Below, in pieces: positions 47,037-54,053 of a stretch of DNA of 64,000 nt. A program made the translations under genes and the position numbers. Each line of letters starts with the position of its first letter. Position 1 is the first letter of the stretch. This stretch comes from Akkermansiaceae bacterium (lineage in GTDB: Bacteria > Verrucomicrobiota > Verrucomicrobiia > Verrucomicrobiales > Akkermansiaceae), in contig CAIVKO010000083.1 of NCBI GenBank assembly GCA_903906515.1, forward strand, positions 1 to 64,000, given 5' to 3'. The notes under the pieces are model-generated. The model worked only from the letters and a program-made list of their open reading frames with translations. It had not been told where the DNA came from and ran no database searches.

Positions 47037-48068
47037 TCAGGCTTCAGTAGAAGTGCTGGAGGTGGAAATGGACGCGAGTTCCTGCTGAATGCGTGAGTTG
47101 ACGCGGCTTTCCACAGTTTCCATGGCGACCCGGATGGCGTTTCGCACGGCCAGGGCGGTGGAGGAACCGTGGGCGATGATGACCACGCCGTTGACGCCGA
47201 GAAGCGGACTGCCGCCGTATGTCTCGTAGCTGCTTTTTTCCTTGAGCGCCTTGAAGGCGCCCTGGGCGAGAACAGCGCCGCAAAGTCGTAGCGGGTTGCC
47301 CTTGATTTCGGCCTTGAGCCACTTGGAAACCGCCTTGGCCGTGGCCTCCACGGTTTTGAGCATGATATTGCCGACAAATCCGTCGCAAAGCACGACATCC
47401 AGCTCGGTTTCGAAAAGATCGCGTCCTTCGACGTTGCCAACAAAATGGATGCCCGGCGTTTGCTTGAGTTGCTTGAAGGTTTCTTTGGTGAAAGTGGTGC
47501 CTTTTTCGTCCTCTTCGCCATTGGACATCAGTCCGACTTTCGGGTTTTTCACCCCCAGCACGTTGCGGGCGAAGGCGGTGCCCATTACCGCGTAGGCGAC
47601 CAAGTGCTCGGGCTTGGCCTCCGGGTTGGCCCCGGCGTCCAGAATGTGGCAGAGCCCGAATTCGTTGGGAATGGCGGTGGCGATACCAGCGCGGTCCACG
47701 CCGGGGAGGGTCCGCAGTTTCAAAGTCGCGGAGGCCACGGCACCACCGGTGTTGCCGGCCGAGACAAAGGCTTCCGCCTTGCCTTCCTTGACCATGTCCA
47801 TGGCCACATTGATCGACGAAAGCTTCTTGCGGCGCACGGTTTTGGCGCCGGGCTCGGCCATGCCGATGACTTCCGGGGCGTGCACGATACTGACCCGCGG
47901 GTCATTCAAATCGAGTCCTTGCTTGGCGCACTCCGCTTTCAGAATTCCCTCGTCACCGACCAAAAACAGATGGGTGATCTTGGAATAATAGCGGAGGGCG
48001 TCGATGGCTCCTCCGATATTGACTGCGGGGGCGAGGTCCCCGCCCATGGCGTCCAGGGCGACTTTCAT
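47037..48068 (-). CDS. plsX: Phosphate acyltransferase PlsX
   Basis: PlsX makes acyl-phosphate from acyl-ACP for phospholipid synthesis. The 343-residue protein has the family start VALDAMGGDLAPAVNIGGAI and further motifs VSAGNTGGAVASATLKL, LDAGANPEAKPEHLVAYAVM, VGLMSNGEEDEKGT and GSPLLGVNGVVIIAHGSST. It lies 110 bases after rpmF, separated by a terminator-like hairpin, so it may have its own promoter. Confidence 0.96.
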   Translation of the reverse strand: MKVALDAMGGDLAPAVNIGGAIDALRYYSKITHLFLVGDEGILKAECAKQGLDLNDPRVSIVHAPEVIGMAEPGAKTVRRKKLSSINVAMDMVKEGKAEAFVSAGNTGGAVASATLKLRTLPGVDRAGIATAIPNEFGLCHILDAGANPEAKPEHLVAYAVMGTAFARNVLGVKNPKVGLMSNGEEDEKGTTFTKETFKQLKQTPGIHFVGNVEGRDLFETELDVVLCDGFVGNIMLKTVEATAKAVSKWLKAEIKGNPLRLCGAVLAQGAFKALKEKSSYETYGGSPLLGVNGVVIIAHGSSTALAVRNAIRVAMETVESRVNSRIQQELASISTSSTSTEA

Positions 48069-49201: not shown

Positions 49202-49900
49202 GTGCATCGATTCCACAAGCCATTTTCATTGATTTTAGGGGCGTTCTTACTTTGCCAGTGCCAGGAACTGGGTCCGCCGCGAGGTGGTGGTCGATCGCGT
49301 CCGGCGGGTGGCGGTCCGATGCCGATGTCGCGGATGTATCGCGAGGTCCACCTCAGGCCGGACATGGTCCCGCGTGGCACCCATGGACGCAAGGTATACC
49401 GGTCGATGAGGCCTCGCTACATCACGATTCATAGCACCCAGAACTACACTGCGAATGCGGCGCAGCACTCGCTCGCCCTGAAACACGGGGCACTGCGATC
49501 GCCGAAAAATCCCCACGGCGGAAACCGTATCGGTTATCTCATCTGGCACTTTACGGTGGACGACCACGAGGCGATCCAGCACATGCCGACCACGGAACAG
49601 GGTGAGCACGCGGATTTCGCAGGCCCGGGAAACCGACTCTCGATCGGCATCGAGATGTGCGAGAATCGCGGCAGCAACCTCAATGCCACCATCGAACGCA
49701 CGGCGAAGTTGACTGCCATCCTGATGAAGAAGAATGGAATTCCGCTTTGCAATGTGGTGCCGCACTATCACTGGCCGCGGCACGGAAAACATCCGCCTAA
49801 CAAAAATTGCCCGCATTTCCTGCTCGACCACGGCCGCCCCGGTTCGAAGTGGAGATGGTTCCAAGGCAAGGTCAATTATTACTACCGGCAACTCCAATGA
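49202..49900 (+). CDS. N-acetylmuramoyl-L-alanine amidase (Amidase_2), likely lipoprotein
   Basis: The product cleaves the bond between MurNAc and the stem peptide of peptidoglycan. The 232-residue protein begins with a signal peptide with a lipobox-like end (LILGAFLLCQC), then a Gly/Pro/Arg-rich linker. The zinc ligands are visible in YITIHSTQNYTANA, NVVPHYHWPRHGKHPPNKN and NCPHFLLD, the H-H-C/H pattern of the Amidase_2 (PGRP-like) family. YLIWHFTVDDHEAIQHMP is also typical. Its stop overlaps the next start (ATGA). Confidence 0.85.
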   Translation: MHRFHKPFSLILGAFLLCQCQELGPPRGGGRSRPAGGGPMPMSRMYREVHLRPDMVPRGTHGRKVYRSMRPRYITIHSTQNYTANAAQHSLALKHGALRSPKNPHGGNRIGYLIWHFTVDDHEAIQHMPTTEQGEHADFAGPGNRLSIGIEMCENRGSNLNATIERTAKLTAILMKKNGIPLCNVVPHYHWPRHGKHPPNKNCPHFLLDHGRPGSKWRWFQGKVNYYYRQLQ

Positions 49901-50286
49901 CGGACGGTCCATCCAAGGATCATGGCAGTCCGGGAAACCGGGATGTCGTTCTGGATCCGGGCGTGTATTACGTCTGCCAGCGCTGCACCGCGTGTTGCAG
50001 GTGGCCGGGAGACGTTCGGCTTGAGGAGGAGGAAATCCCGGTCATCGCCGGGTTTCTTGGCCTGATCGAGGCTGACTTCCTCCAGCAATACACCCGCCTG
50101 CGTTCGAATCGGAACGGCCTCTCGCTCATCGAAAGAGAAAACCACGAATGCATCATGCTGGAAGGGAACGCCTGCCGCATCCATCCGGTCAAACCCGGGC
50201 AATGCGAGGGGTTTCCTAACAAGTGGAATTTTCCCGGTTGGCGACGAGTCTGTGAGGCGGTGCCGGTGGCGGTTGAGCTCATTTGA
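49897..50286 (+). CDS. YkgJ-type cysteine-cluster protein
   Basis: The 129-residue protein matches the YkgJ/CxxCxxxxC family: YVCQRCTACCRWPGDVRL (about 25-42), then CIMLEGNACRIHPVKPGQC with further cysteines, and FPGWRRVC. The eight cysteines probably bind a metal or iron-sulfur cluster (inference). It overlaps the amidase by 4 bases. Function unknown. Confidence 0.8.
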   Translation: MTDGPSKDHGSPGNRDVVLDPGVYYVCQRCTACCRWPGDVRLEEEEIPVIAGFLGLIEADFLQQYTRLRSNRNGLSLIERENHECIMLEGNACRIHPVKPGQCEGFPNKWNFPGWRRVCEAVPVAVELI

Positions 50287-50459: not shown

Positions 50460-53066
50460 ATGTGGAGGATGCTAGGAATAATGAGAAAATTGATTCAATC
50501 CGAAAAAATCAGGCGTTGGTTTGGCGTCGTGATGCGTTTCGCCTGGTTGGCGGTGATGATCATCGCCCTCATGGCGTTGCACCGCGAATGGGCGGGTTTC
50601 AACATGAAGGAGCTTGATGGGGTGCTGCGCCGGATCGGAGGTTGGCATTTGGCGTGCGCGTTGGTGCTGACGGCGCTGAGCCTGCTTTGCAATGCCTCGT
50701 TGGATCTGGTGGCGTTGCGATGGTTGCGGCGGGATCTTCCTAAGGGGAAGGTATTGGGCACCGCCTTGATCGCGGGTTCTTTCAGCATGAATGGTGGCGG
50801 CACGATCCTGGGCGGTGGTACGATCCGGCTGCGCTTGTATGGCCAATATGGATTGGATGGCGCAGAAATTGCCAAACTGACCGGATTTCTGTTGATCGCC
50901 GGTTGGTTGGGTCATGCGCTGCTGGCGGGGATTTTGTTATGTTGGAGCCCTCCGGACCTGCCGTGGTTGTCCGCTATGGTCGGGCGTGGGGTGGGAGCGT
51001 TGTTGTTGGCTTCCTGTTTCACACTCGCGGTGTTGTCGGTCACCGGATTCCGAGGCCGCAAGATTCCTTTCCTGCCCCCGTTGAATCTGCTTCTAACCAC
51101 GATGGTGGTGTCGACGCTCGATTGGTTGTTCGCGGGGCTCGCGCTGCGGGTTTTTCTTCCTGCGGAAATCCCGACTCCGGCATTTCTGGCGGCGACTGCG
51201 GTCGGGCAGGCGCTCGGTGCGGCCAGTCATGTGCCTGGCGGGGTGGGGGTGATGGAGATTTCTATCAGCAAGCTGTCGGCGGGAATGAGCGAGCCGGCGG
51301 TTATGGCCGGAGCGCTGCTCACTTACCGGATGATTTACTATCTGATACCATTCCTGATCGCCGTGATCGCGGTGAGCAGTCGTGAAATCTGGGCCAAGCG
51401 GCATTGGGCGAAGATCACGGTGGATGGCACGGCCAAGGCATGGTCGGCCATCGCGCCGCAGTTGGCGGGCATGACCGCGCTGGCGGGCGGATTCGTGCTG
51501 ATGTTGTCCGCCACCACGCCGATGCTTGTGGAGCGTCGGGTGGTTCTCGAAAATTTCATTCCGCTGCCATTCGTGGAGGCGTCGCATTTTCTATCGAGCA
51601 TTGCGGGAACCGTCATGATCATCGTCGCTCACGGACTGCTGCGCCGCGTGAGGGCGGCTTGGTGGATTGCCGTGCTGATGGCGGGTGGTGGAGTGGTGTT
51701 TTCGCTGTTGAAGGGGTTCGATTGGGAAGAGGCGGTGGTGTTGTGTGTGTTTCTCGGAGCCTTGCTGCCATTCAAGTCGAAGTTCCACCGTCATGCGGGC
51801 ATTTGGACGCGCAGGTTCACACCGTTGTGGTGGGCTCTGATTCTATCTATCATCGGCATCGCGATTTGGTTCGGTTTCTACACCAGTCGCCATGTGGGAT
51901 ATGAGTCCGACCTGTGGTGGCAATATTCGTTCGAGAACGATGCGTCCCGGTTGCTGCGCGGGATGGCCGGAAGCGCCCTGATTTTGTTGTTTGTCGCGCT
52001 CACGCAGTGGTTGCGTCCGGCACCGCCGCGGGCGCGAACCCCGTTGCCGGAAATGGGTAAAATCGAAGCCATGGTTGCGAAAAGTACCCGCTGCGCCAGT
52101 GCGCTCGCGTTGGTGGGCGATAAGGACTTCCTTTTCAATTACGACCAGAACGCGTTCCTGATGTACCGCGACCAGAGCAGGACGCGAGTCGCCATCGCGG
52201 ACCCGGTGGGGGATGAGGAGATGTTCGAAGGGCTTTACTGGCGGTTTGCGGAACAGGCGCAGGACGAGGGCATGAGGGTGGTGTTCTATCAGGTGTCGGC
52301 GGCGATGGTGCCGATTTGTGTCGAAATGGGCATGAGGGTGTTCAAACTCGGCGAGGAGGCGATGATTCCGCTGGAAACGTTCGATCTGGCTTCATCCGGG
52401 CTTAAGAAATTCCGCAAGGTGATGAACCGCATGGAGCGTGAGGATTGGCGCTTCGAGATCTGGTCGCTCGATCAGGTGGCTACGCGCATCGAAGAACTCC
52501 GCACGATTTCGGACGCATGGCTTGCTCATCAAGGGGCGCGTGAAAAGGGGTTTTCGCTAGGCAGTTTCGAGGATGACTACATCCGCCGGCTTCCGGTGGC
52601 GGTCATTTTCGTGAAAGACAAGTTGGTCGCGTTCGGCAACATGTGGCCGGGCAACGGAAAAGACGAACTTTCCACCGATCTGATGCGCCATCTGCCCGAT
52701 GCGCCGAACGGTGTGATGGACTGCTTGTTCGTGAGCCTGATGTTGTGGGGCAAGGAGCAGGGATACCAATGGTTCGATCTCGGTATGGCCCCGTTGTCGG
52801 GGCTGGCGGGGCGGCAATTCGCGCCTTTGTGGAACCGCATCGGCGGGTTGATTTATGACCGGGGCGAAGCATTTTACAATTTCAACGGGCTGCGCGCTTG
52901 GAAAAGCAAGTTTCAGCCGATCTGGAAACCCCGCTACCTCGCGATTCCGAAAGCTTGGGATCTCCCTGCTGTTATTCTCGACATCACCGGGTTGATTGGG
53001 AAATCCTCCATCCGTTCGTGCGCTTCATCTTCCGAGCCGAACACCGGACCCTCGACCGCACCATGA
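50460..53066 (+). CDS. mprF: MprF-like aminoacyl-phosphatidylglycerol synthase/flippase
   Basis: MprF adds an amino acid (lysine or alanine) from aminoacyl-tRNA to phosphatidylglycerol and flips the product, making the surface less negative. The 868-residue protein has about 14 membrane helices; the flippase core includes FSMNGGGTILGGGTIRLRLY and the segment QALGAASHVPGGVGVMEISI. The C-terminal DUF2156 catalytic domain (from about 530) has DKDFLFNYDQNAFLMYRDQ, RVAIADPVGDEEMFEGLYW, MNRMEREDWRFEIW and WFDLGMAPLSGLAGRQFAPL. The first ATG at 50460 is followed by others at residues 4 and 8. Its stop overlaps a VirJ-type hydrolase gene. Confidence 0.9.
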   Translation: MWRMLGIMRKLIQSEKIRRWFGVVMRFAWLAVMIIALMALHREWAGFNMKELDGVLRRIGGWHLACALVLTALSLLCNASLDLVALRWLRRDLPKGKVLGTALIAGSFSMNGGGTILGGGTIRLRLYGQYGLDGAEIAKLTGFLLIAGWLGHALLAGILLCWSPPDLPWLSAMVGRGVGALLLASCFTLAVLSVTGFRGRKIPFLPPLNLLLTTMVVSTLDWLFAGLALRVFLPAEIPTPAFLAATAVGQALGAASHVPGGVGVMEISISKLSAGMSEPAVMAGALLTYRMIYYLIPFLIAVIAVSSREIWAKRHWAKITVDGTAKAWSAIAPQLAGMTALAGGFVLMLSATTPMLVERRVVLENFIPLPFVEASHFLSSIAGTVMIIVAHGLLRRVRAAWWIAVLMAGGGVVFSLLKGFDWEEAVVLCVFLGALLPFKSKFHRHAGIWTRRFTPLWWALILSIIGIAIWFGFYTSRHVGYESDLWWQYSFENDASRLLRGMAGSALILLFVALTQWLRPAPPRARTPLPEMGKIEAMVAKSTRCASALALVGDKDFLFNYDQNAFLMYRDQSRTRVAIADPVGDEEMFEGLYWRFAEQAQDEGMRVVFYQVSAAMVPICVEMGMRVFKLGEEAMIPLETFDLASSGLKKFRKVMNRMEREDWRFEIWSLDQVATRIEELRTISDAWLAHQGAREKGFSLGSFEDDYIRRLPVAVIFVKDKLVAFGNMWPGNGKDELSTDLMRHLPDAPNGVMDCLFVSLMLWGKEQGYQWFDLGMAPLSGLAGRQFAPLWNRIGGLIYDRGEAFYNFNGLRAWKSKFQPIWKPRYLAIPKAWDLPAVILDITGLIGKSSIRSCASSSEPNTGPSTAP

Positions 53067-53881
53067 CTCTTTTCTCACGAGTGATTCTCCGTCGTTCCCT
53101 ATTGGTTCTTCAGATTTTACTGTTGATTCCGATAGGATGGTTCATCTGGCATGTCCTGATGCCGCGCGGATTCTCCAGCAACAAGGCGGAGGTTCTACCG
53201 CTGCGTTTATCCACCGGGGATTTTAAAGTGCTTTATCACGCCGCAAAAAGTCCCAAGGGAGTCATCATCGTCGCTACCGGGGACGGCGGATGGTCTGACC
53301 AATGGGAGGAACCGCTTGCACTTCATGCCGCCGCAGCGGGATACGCGGTCGGTGGCTGGGACTGCCGGAGATTCGCCGATACACGGACATTCGATCAAGC
53401 GCAACTGGTGGAGGCGTTTAATGGCGCGGTTGGTGTGGTTAGAAAACGGGCAGGCCTCGCGGATGATTGTCCGGTCTGGTACACCGGATGGTCCACCGGA
53501 GCCGAGTGGGCGGTGGCGGCAGCCGCTAGTCCGCAACGCGAAAAACATCTGATAGGCATTCTTGCCGCGGCACCCGGCGACCGTAGCCGCTACGGCATCA
53601 CCGCCAGCGATTTGTTAGGTTTAGAGCCGCAGGGCCCGGGATCCTTCGCGTTGAAGGATCATGCGCCGCTGCTGAAGGGAATCCATGTGGTGCAATTTGC
53701 AGCAGGTCTGGATCCTCTGGATGATGCCGGATGGCTGGATTCGCTTGGTTCGGAAACCCCGCACAAGCTTGTTTCCATTCCAGATGTCCCACATGACATG
53801 GGATGCGCGGGCGAGAGGTTTCAAGCCGAGTTCGACATGGCCATCCAGTGGATGCATGACACGCCCGTGCCGATGAAATGA
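53063..53881 (+). CDS. VirJ/AcvB-type serine hydrolase
   Basis: The 272-residue protein has an N-terminal membrane anchor or signal (LLVLQILLLIPIGWFIWHVL) and an alpha/beta hydrolase of the VirJ family. The nucleophile is Ser144 in YTGWSTGAEWA; Asp217 (FAAGLDPLDDAGW) and His244 (DVPHDMG) complete a plausible triad. ATGDGGWSDQWEEPLA forms the oxyanion region. AcvB in Agrobacterium hydrolyses lysyl-phosphatidylglycerol. Here the gene overlaps the MprF-like gene by 4 bases, so synthase and hydrolase are co-expressed. Confidence 0.88.
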   Translation: MTLFSRVILRRSLLVLQILLLIPIGWFIWHVLMPRGFSSNKAEVLPLRLSTGDFKVLYHAAKSPKGVIIVATGDGGWSDQWEEPLALHAAAAGYAVGGWDCRRFADTRTFDQAQLVEAFNGAVGVVRKRAGLADDCPVWYTGWSTGAEWAVAAAASPQREKHLIGILAAAPGDRSRYGITASDLLGLEPQGPGSFALKDHAPLLKGIHVVQFAAGLDPLDDAGWLDSLGSETPHKLVSIPDVPHDMGCAGERFQAEFDMAIQWMHDTPVPMK

Positions 53882-53925: not shown

Positions 53926-54053
53926 AACCGCAGATGGACGCGGATTAACGCAGATAATAAAGAGCTGTGTTAATTGGCTTATACGCCAGGCTGTTAGTAT
54001 CAGTTGCTCATATGCTTCTTAAGATTAACGTCCATCTGCGTCCATCTGCGGTT
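53926..54053. repeat. Palindromic repeat entering the permease 3' end
   Basis: AACCGCAGATGGACGC at 53926-53941 and its exact reverse complement at 54038-54053 bracket about 96 bases. Arms continue with GATTAACGCAGAT-like units. The right arm is read in frame by the APC permease gene and supplies its last residues NQPQMDADGR and the TAA stop. It differs from the GGCAGGGAC family. Confidence 0.7.

Follow-up and report, generated by a model that had tools for sequence, protein, structure and literature searches.

Why would a bacterium keep, in two overlapping genes, an enzyme that should attach an amino acid to a membrane lipid and another that should take it off again? The locus that raises this question lies at positions 50460 to 53881 of a 64,000-nucleotide stretch from an Akkermansiaceae bacterium (GenBank assembly GCA_903906515.1, contig CAIVKO010000083.1, positions 1 to 64,000), which we call the window. 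It pairs an mprF gene with a gene for a probable relative of the hydrolases AcvB and VirJ, and a preliminary description had proposed that the two tune membrane charge in both directions. Our analysis makes it probable that they form a coupled aminoacyl-phosphatidylglycerol (aminoacyl-PG) synthase/hydrolase module that sets membrane lipid charge; its enzymatic activity, substrate, topology and physiological role we infer. Most work on aminoacyl-PG concerns its role in defence against cationic peptides, and to our knowledge its removal has been studied in few bacteria, for example Agrobacterium and Pseudomonas.

In the mechanism that we propose, the two genes would act as one module, probably coupled in translation. 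MprF would transfer an amino acid from an aminoacyl-tRNA to phosphatidylglycerol (PG) at the inner face of the cytoplasmic membrane and would then move the product to the outer face. The hydrolase, held by one N-terminal helix, would act there as a periplasmic serine hydrolase, releasing the amino acid and regenerating PG. How much aminoacyl-PG the membrane carries, and hence its surface charge, would depend on the balance between these activities.

The synthase gene and the overlapping hydrolase gene

Two open reading frames lie on the plus strand, 50460-53066 (868 amino acids, with ATG codons at 50469 or 50481 as alternative starts) and 53063-53881 (272 amino acids). The four-base overlap reported in the preliminary description is there, as ATGA at 53063-53066. 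The features of the first gene and of the junction are as follows.

50460..53066, plus strand: mprF, full-length aminoacyl-PG synthase/flippase, 868 amino acids (NCBIfam NF033480, Pfam LPG_synthase_C, solved relatives)
50517..51389, plus strand: flippase half of MprF, limits approximate by our estimate (alignment to RtMprF; residue roles from PMC8131360)
52083..52943, plus strand: LPG_synthase_C cytoplasmic synthase domain, residues 542-828 (Pfam match)
53063..53066, plus strand: ATGA stop/start overlap of mprF and the hydrolase gene, 4 bases (sequence; compatible with 11 of 12 related same-order junctions)

The 868-residue protein can be placed in the MprF family with solid support, as the preliminary description had it. 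It matched NCBIfam NF033480 (bifunc_MprF) with 807.9 bits (cut-off 600) over positions 8-841 of 841, and Pfam LPG_synthase_C with 303.8 bits, and it aligned over about 800 residues with the solved relatives 7f47 and LpiA (6lvf). In the latter, RtMprF, the discussed flippase residues are Asp234, Glu280 and a YRXXY motif, Tyr303-Arg304-xx-Tyr307 (PMC8131360). The alignment places D221, E266 and Y289-R290-M-I-Y293 of the window protein opposite D234, E280 and Y303-R304-xx-Y307. We infer that the window MprF can both make and flip aminoacyl-PG.

The features of the second gene are these.

53063..53881, plus strand: AcvB/VirJ-like alpha/beta-hydrolase, 272 amino acids, with a predicted single N-terminal anchor and periplasmic enzyme (AlphaFold2, fold searches, family profile)
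53078..53164, plus strand: N-terminal hydrophobic helix of the hydrolase, residues 6-34, with arginines that precede and open it (hydropathy; helix 3-32 in the model)
53282..53284, plus strand: hydrolase Asp74 codon, AcvB Asp271 (alignment)
53492..53494, plus strand: hydrolase Ser144 codon, proposed nucleophile, AcvB Ser336, in GWSTGA between strand and helix (alignment, model)
53588..53590, plus strand: hydrolase Arg176 codon, opposite AcvB Asp370, with Arg in every family row examined (alignment)
53711..53713, plus strand: hydrolase Asp217 codon, proposed triad acid (model, family alignment)
53792..53794, plus strand: hydrolase His244 codon, proposed triad histidine (model, family alignment)

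On its own, the hydrolase matched no Pfam or NCBIfam family over its cut-off. When family profiles were searched against 177,635 distinct Protein Data Bank (PDB) sequences, AcvB came first, both with a 14-row profile (E 8.5e-6; best non-AcvB match 0.016) and with a 25-row profile (9xhm, E 1.6e-16; 9xhn, E 1.6e-11). Likewise, the Pfam VirJ profile (PF06057) matched all 14 type-A members, type A being the arrangement of the window with a full MprF adjacent, at E ≤ 1 (best 1.5e-6). The same profile was silent everywhere in the window's own genome, controls included, and therefore says nothing about absence there.

An AlphaFold2 model of the hydrolase (predicted local distance difference test score, pLDDT, 86.8) consists of an N-terminal helix followed by an alpha/beta-hydrolase. 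In a structural search with this model the top nine chains reached VIA Z 20.0-20.6, at 3.1-3.7 Å over 201-217 residues. The 50 best matches listed in either structural search were other hydrolases, many of them esterases, and AcvB was not among them; we use these searches as support for the fold only. Ser144, Asp217 and His244 sit after model strands in the order expected for the fold, and all three are kept in 37 of 37 family rows, a count that leaves out three degenerate rows, a canonical VirJ and the fragments L015, L016, L135 and L136. Both family profiles aligned Ser144 to the AcvB nucleophile, Ser336. His244 aligned with a histidine of the canonical VirJ of genome G186; this region lies outside the profile match to AcvB (His433) itself.

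Hydropathy and the model both place at the N-terminus a hydrophobic helix with arginines on its near side; the hydrolase is probably anchored in the membrane by this helix, with the enzyme in the periplasm. We consider the second protein to be a distant, divergent relative of AcvB and VirJ that is probably active. The VirJ/AcvB assignment of the preliminary description thus stands in part: AcvB is the best solved relative and the triad is kept, but the protein falls below the Pfam cut-off, carries Arg176 and, unlike a canonical VirJ, has a likely anchor and not a soluble periplasmic form.

Conservation of the pair and hydrolase-synthase fusions

An mprF gene adjoins the hydrolase gene in all 15 loci found with the hydrolase query, which belong to Verrucomicrobia, Akkermansiaceae, Luteolibacter pohnpeiensis, Brevifollis and similar. 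The mprF gene comes first in 13 loci and the hydrolase gene in two (L013 and L016); in L015 both genes are fragments. The 4-base overlap fits 11 of the 12 same-order junctions examined (L015 gave none, and L013 and L016 are reversed), at MprF identities down to about 49%, although in three of the 11 (L005, L007 and L009) another ATG within six bases may be the start. The exceptions in the same order are gaps of 9 bases in L012 and of 6 bases in a further genome, G570; with the window and G570 added, the -4 overlap fits 12 of 14. In L016 (5001-5713) and L048 the hydrolase frame is broken, through error or decay, in a metagenome-assembled genome whose downstream mprF is cut by a contig end.

Surveyed across Verrucomicrobiota, as the preliminary description had suggested, the pairing held. 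The hydrolase profile matched in 16 of 387 genomes and an MprF-class synthase (PF09924 at 200 bits or more; G268, where a contig end truncates the gene, is counted too) was present in 20. Of the 16 hydrolase genomes, 15 have both. A class survey with a wider profile gave matches in 30 of 384 genomes, many overlapping with the phylum survey. Both profile surveys scored at most six candidates per genome, and a genome with no match is therefore not proven to lack the gene.

By neighbourhood, the 30 genomes comprised eight of type A (with the hydrolase first in G551, G644 and G268), nine of type B, seven of type C and six others. In type B the hydrolase is followed by a synthase of roughly 560-590 amino acids that lacks the flippase. 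In type C, hydrolase and synthase are one protein, split over two contig ends in G217. The others are G564 (synthase fragments on another contig), three genomes with dead copies, the remnant G414 and the weak G535. The nine type-B junctions are close as well: five are ATGA, one GTGA, one TTGA or a 5-base gap, one an 8-base overlap and one a 3-base gap. Where a type-A locus starts with the hydrolase, the two junctions that could be read overlap by 34 bases (L013) and 25 bases (L125).

Trees of 31 synthase and 26 hydrolase rows were made before the class survey and omit L012, L015 and L016 (synthase rows) and L041 and the degenerate L042 (hydrolase rows). Both trees place type A in a single group (100/99 and 98/96). 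The fusions cluster together in the hydrolase tree (97/99) and, weakly, in the synthase tree (74/59). A type-B group is seen in the synthase tree (81/80) and is missing from the hydrolase tree. Long, fully supported branches divide types B and C from the full MprFs, which indicates that one and the same hydrolase family has two well-separated synthase lineages as partners. At the sequence level, the coupling of making and removing aminoacyl-PG is well supported by the conserved pair, by these two lineages and by natural fusions.

The fusion occurs in nine genomes of three families: G254, G178, G251 and G566 in the window's own family (f1), G187, G190 and G217 in f2, and G029 and G003 in f23. 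Eight proteins are complete (843-880 amino acids). All seven that were scanned with Pfam (L126 was left out) matched both VirJ, with 26-39 bits (cut-off 22), and LPG_synthase_C, with 234-250 bits. Their layout is a hydrophobic N-terminal segment (two in L038), the hydrolase, further segments and the synthase. Hydropathy gave seven segments before the synthase in seven of the eight fusions and six in L035, while of the eight readable type-B synthases (L127, read in the wrong frame, is left out) six had six segments and two had five. These counts come from a crude predictor, in a second pass with a lower threshold of our choice, after a stricter first pass merged or lost segments. An odd number would put hydrolase and synthase on opposite faces and six would not; the counts are thus suggestive of fusion proteins that span the membrane, with hydrolase and synthase on opposite faces.

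The fusion resembles the LpiA-AcvB complex, here occurring naturally in one protein, and natural fusions lend independent support to that proposed complex. The need of the hydrolase for membrane contact could be met by the anchor helix in type A, by a possible lipoprotein signal in L046 (our reading of its N-terminus) or by fusion in type C. A scan for a separate flippase with PF03706 gave no match in five of the 12 flippase-less genomes, and the flippase half of the window MprF itself reached only 19.7 bits with this profile (cut-off 33.4). Some PF09924 match occurred in 141 of 387 genomes, and LPG_synthase_C proteins of roughly 300 amino acids, too short for a full membrane half, were seen in many genomes. 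Our survey for fusions covered the genomes of this phylum and a plasmid collection, and does not imply that they are restricted to the phylum. In the plasmid collection the window hydrolase had no match. In none of the 134 records matched by the fusion query did a single place cover 80% of the query, and the collection thus showed no fusion.

Other forms of the hydrolase gene were also seen. Three genomes of one genus (G078, G443 and G541) have dead copies (L042:5586-7370, L133:3700-5643 and L134:2866-3816) that have lost Ser, Asp and His and kept the Arg; these genomes gave no PF09924 synthase-domain match, and the copies are possibly pseudo-enzymes with a new role. G451 (L128:4862-6647) has tandem hydrolase copies before the synthase, and G644 (L123:5032-5970) an extra solo copy with Glu replacing Asp74. 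In G414 (L135:4523-5364) remnants of hydrolase and synthase lie side by side, from a decayed pair or a decayed fusion.

The AcvB-type pair, judged by sequence, is also present in this phylum. In G186 (L086:3110-6400), of another verrucomicrobial family, a canonical VirJ (178 bits) lies 12 bases downstream of a full mprF. The preliminary description had called the pairing best studied in Alphaproteobacteria; with this locus and the Pseudomonas homologs (PMC13197417) it proves broader.

Flanking genes were compared up to 5 kb on each side of the pair, less in some loci. Two of eight recur, an amidase gene and a CxxCxxCC gene, both only in L002 and L015 of the 15 loci, which lends no support to a single conserved operon spanning the neighbourhood. 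The plsX gene at 47037 lies outside this test, given its reach. Upstream of mprF, window positions 49202-50286 encode an Amidase_2 protein and a CxxCxxCC (putative metal-chelating) protein. Between the hydrolase and permease genes, at 53926-54053, two inverted copies of the short repeat AACCGCAGATGGACGC lie about 110 bases apart. The genome has 23 occurrences of a related pattern, with five inverted pairs 106-119 bases apart, the window pair included; this looks like a dispersed paired element. Scans of the locus for sigma-70-like promoters (none found, 1.7 expected) and terminator-like matches (9, against 5.4 expected) were uninformative.

Substrate residues and competing explanations

If the hydrolase acts on aminoacyl-PG, which amino acid does it remove? 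A docking model of AcvB, backed by mutants, puts the alpha-amino group next to Asp271 and Asp340 and the lysine side chain next to Asp370; removal of Asp340 reduced activity, and both B. abortus VirJ and the homologs of Ala-PG producers carry Ser or Thr at the Asp370 position (PMC13197417). The window hydrolase keeps Asp271 (as Asp74) and has a conservative change at Asp340 (Glu148), and its Leu184-Leu185 align with the membrane loop residues Trp378-Leu379. Opposite Asp370, two profile alignments place Arg176, and Arg stands there in all 40 family rows, the three degenerate ones included. This invariant Arg makes lysyl-PG a less likely substrate, and with low to moderate confidence we favour alanine or another non-lysyl, non-basic residue, a choice that hangs on one position. 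The hydrolase could still share the lysyl-PG specificity of AcvB, which would be compatible with a charge-setting module, if Arg176 lay off the side-chain site. The retained Asp74 and the acidic Glu148 would fit, but we consider this unlikely given the two alignments and given that the canonical VirJ of G186, from the same phylum and another family, has Asp at this position. As to the earlier idea of charge tuning by making and removing a charged lipid, the coupling is well supported by pair, lineages and fusions, while the residue evidence speaks against lysine.

Several observations weigh against an aminoacyl-PG module. Alone, the hydrolase scored 13.2 bits with Pfam VirJ (cut-off 22), and phmmer found no relative of it in the PDB; because this score falls short of the curated value, and because the residue opposite the lysine-specific Asp is Arg, we have not filed the protein as a PF06057 member. 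The acidic residue at the Asp340/Glu148 position, Glu or Asp in 16 of 16 type-A proteins, is kept in six of nine type-B hydrolases (as Glu) and in none of nine fusions (Ala, Val, Thr or Gly), which suggests that the fusions have an altered activity or specificity. Five of the 20 genomes with an MprF-class synthase had no match to the hydrolase, one of these five having a canonical VirJ. The polar lipids given for Luteolibacter in the available part of PMC11427321 are PG, phosphatidylethanolamine, diphosphatidylglycerol and one unidentified lipid, with no aminoacyl-PG named, and we found no literature linking Luteolibacter with an aminophospholipid. Moreover, the compared genomes are related, so that our counts are not independent.

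One alternative is that the hydrolase is a general periplasmic lipase or esterase that acts on some other ester or lipid and is merely co-expressed with MprF. Alpha/beta-hydrolases are versatile, and many esterases came up in the fold searches; by sequence, monoglyceride lipases are more weakly related, next after AcvB with the 25-row profile (E about 6e-7), and the general family Hydrolase_4 matches six of the 14 type-A members with a best E-value (1.4e-7) that betters that of VirJ. Against it stand the pairing with two separate synthase lineages and the fusion with a synthase; AcvB remains the best solved relative, and the dead copies lie in genomes with no synthase-domain match. We therefore regard this explanation as quite improbable. 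Less probable again is a transferase that would hand the amino acid of aminoacyl-PG on to an acceptor in the periplasm; the pair would then serve export or transfer instead of charge tuning. From general enzymology, serine acyl-enzymes are able to acylate further acceptors. A fused synthase and hydrolase would otherwise run a futile cycle, and the substrate pocket of the Arg176 clade is different from that of AcvB. On the other hand, none of the eight window neighbours tested, within at most 5 kb, recurs in more than two of the 15 loci, and the characterised relatives are hydrolases (PMC13197417).

We return to the coupled synthase/hydrolase module as the preferred reading. Tentatively, and with the balance somewhat against it, it may be extended to a separate Verrucomicrobiota clade of aminoacyl-PG hydrolases, marked by the invariant Arg, acting on a non-lysyl aminoacyl lipid and locked to the synthase by close or overlapping junctions in both orders and by fusion. 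Through their extra seventh helix, the fusions would make and unmake aminoacyl-PG on opposite faces, as a self-limiting charge thermostat or for lipid-carried amino-acid export, the latter being conceivable since the fusions lack the MprF flippase half.

Comparison with known systems

A literature search by title gave no study of MprF in Verrucomicrobia, and among the papers listed by a second search, on aminoacyl-PG, none names the phylum. The hydrolase family, if our reading is true, extends make-and-remove control to this phylum. The Arg/Asp switch would be a testable marker of specificity. Flippase-less Ala-PG synthases and synthase fusions are known already, as set out below. For the synthase-hydrolase fusion, the most interesting part of our results, a limited search by title and the start of the abstract found no published report, which does not prove that none exists. 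It offers a simple test protein in which synthase and hydrolase are fixed at 1:1, and it raises the question of how the lipid crosses between the active sites when the flippase is missing.

The lpiA-atvA pair of Rhizobium tropici is a similar system, and AtvA has been named as a homolog (PMC13197417). The closest characterised parallel is LpiA-AcvB of Agrobacterium tumefaciens (PMC13197417; PMC13135905), which shares with the window an MprF-type synthase/flippase gene beside an alpha/beta-hydrolase gene and the logic of a module. AcvB hydrolyses Lys-PG, is encoded in an operon with lpiA and binds LpiA; it is without hydrophobic helices and associates with the membrane via a loop and via LpiA (PMC13197417). 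Like AcvB, the window hydrolase keeps the nucleophile serine and Asp271. It departs from AcvB, which has two hydrolase domains and a cleaved signal, in its single hydrolase domain and likely anchor; Asp370 is replaced by Arg, and the Trp378-Leu379 loop by Leu-Leu.

VirJ (PMC13135905) has a single catalytic domain, as does the window hydrolase, and the Pseudomonas homolog PA0919, from an Ala-PG-producing bacterium, belongs to those with Ser or Thr at the Asp370 site (PMC13197417). The window hydrolase differs from both in scoring below the Pfam VirJ cut-off and in having Arg, not Ser or Thr, at that site. On the synthase side, MprF1 of Clostridium perfringens (PMC11980842) is an Ala-PG synthase that lacks a flippase; in this and in its six helices it resembles the type-B partners. 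Unlike it, the window MprF has a flippase half. For the fusions there is a precedent in LysX of mycobacteria. LysX (NF002821) joins an MprF-type synthase to another enzyme, although its partner is a lysine-tRNA ligase and not a hydrolase (NCBIfam description).

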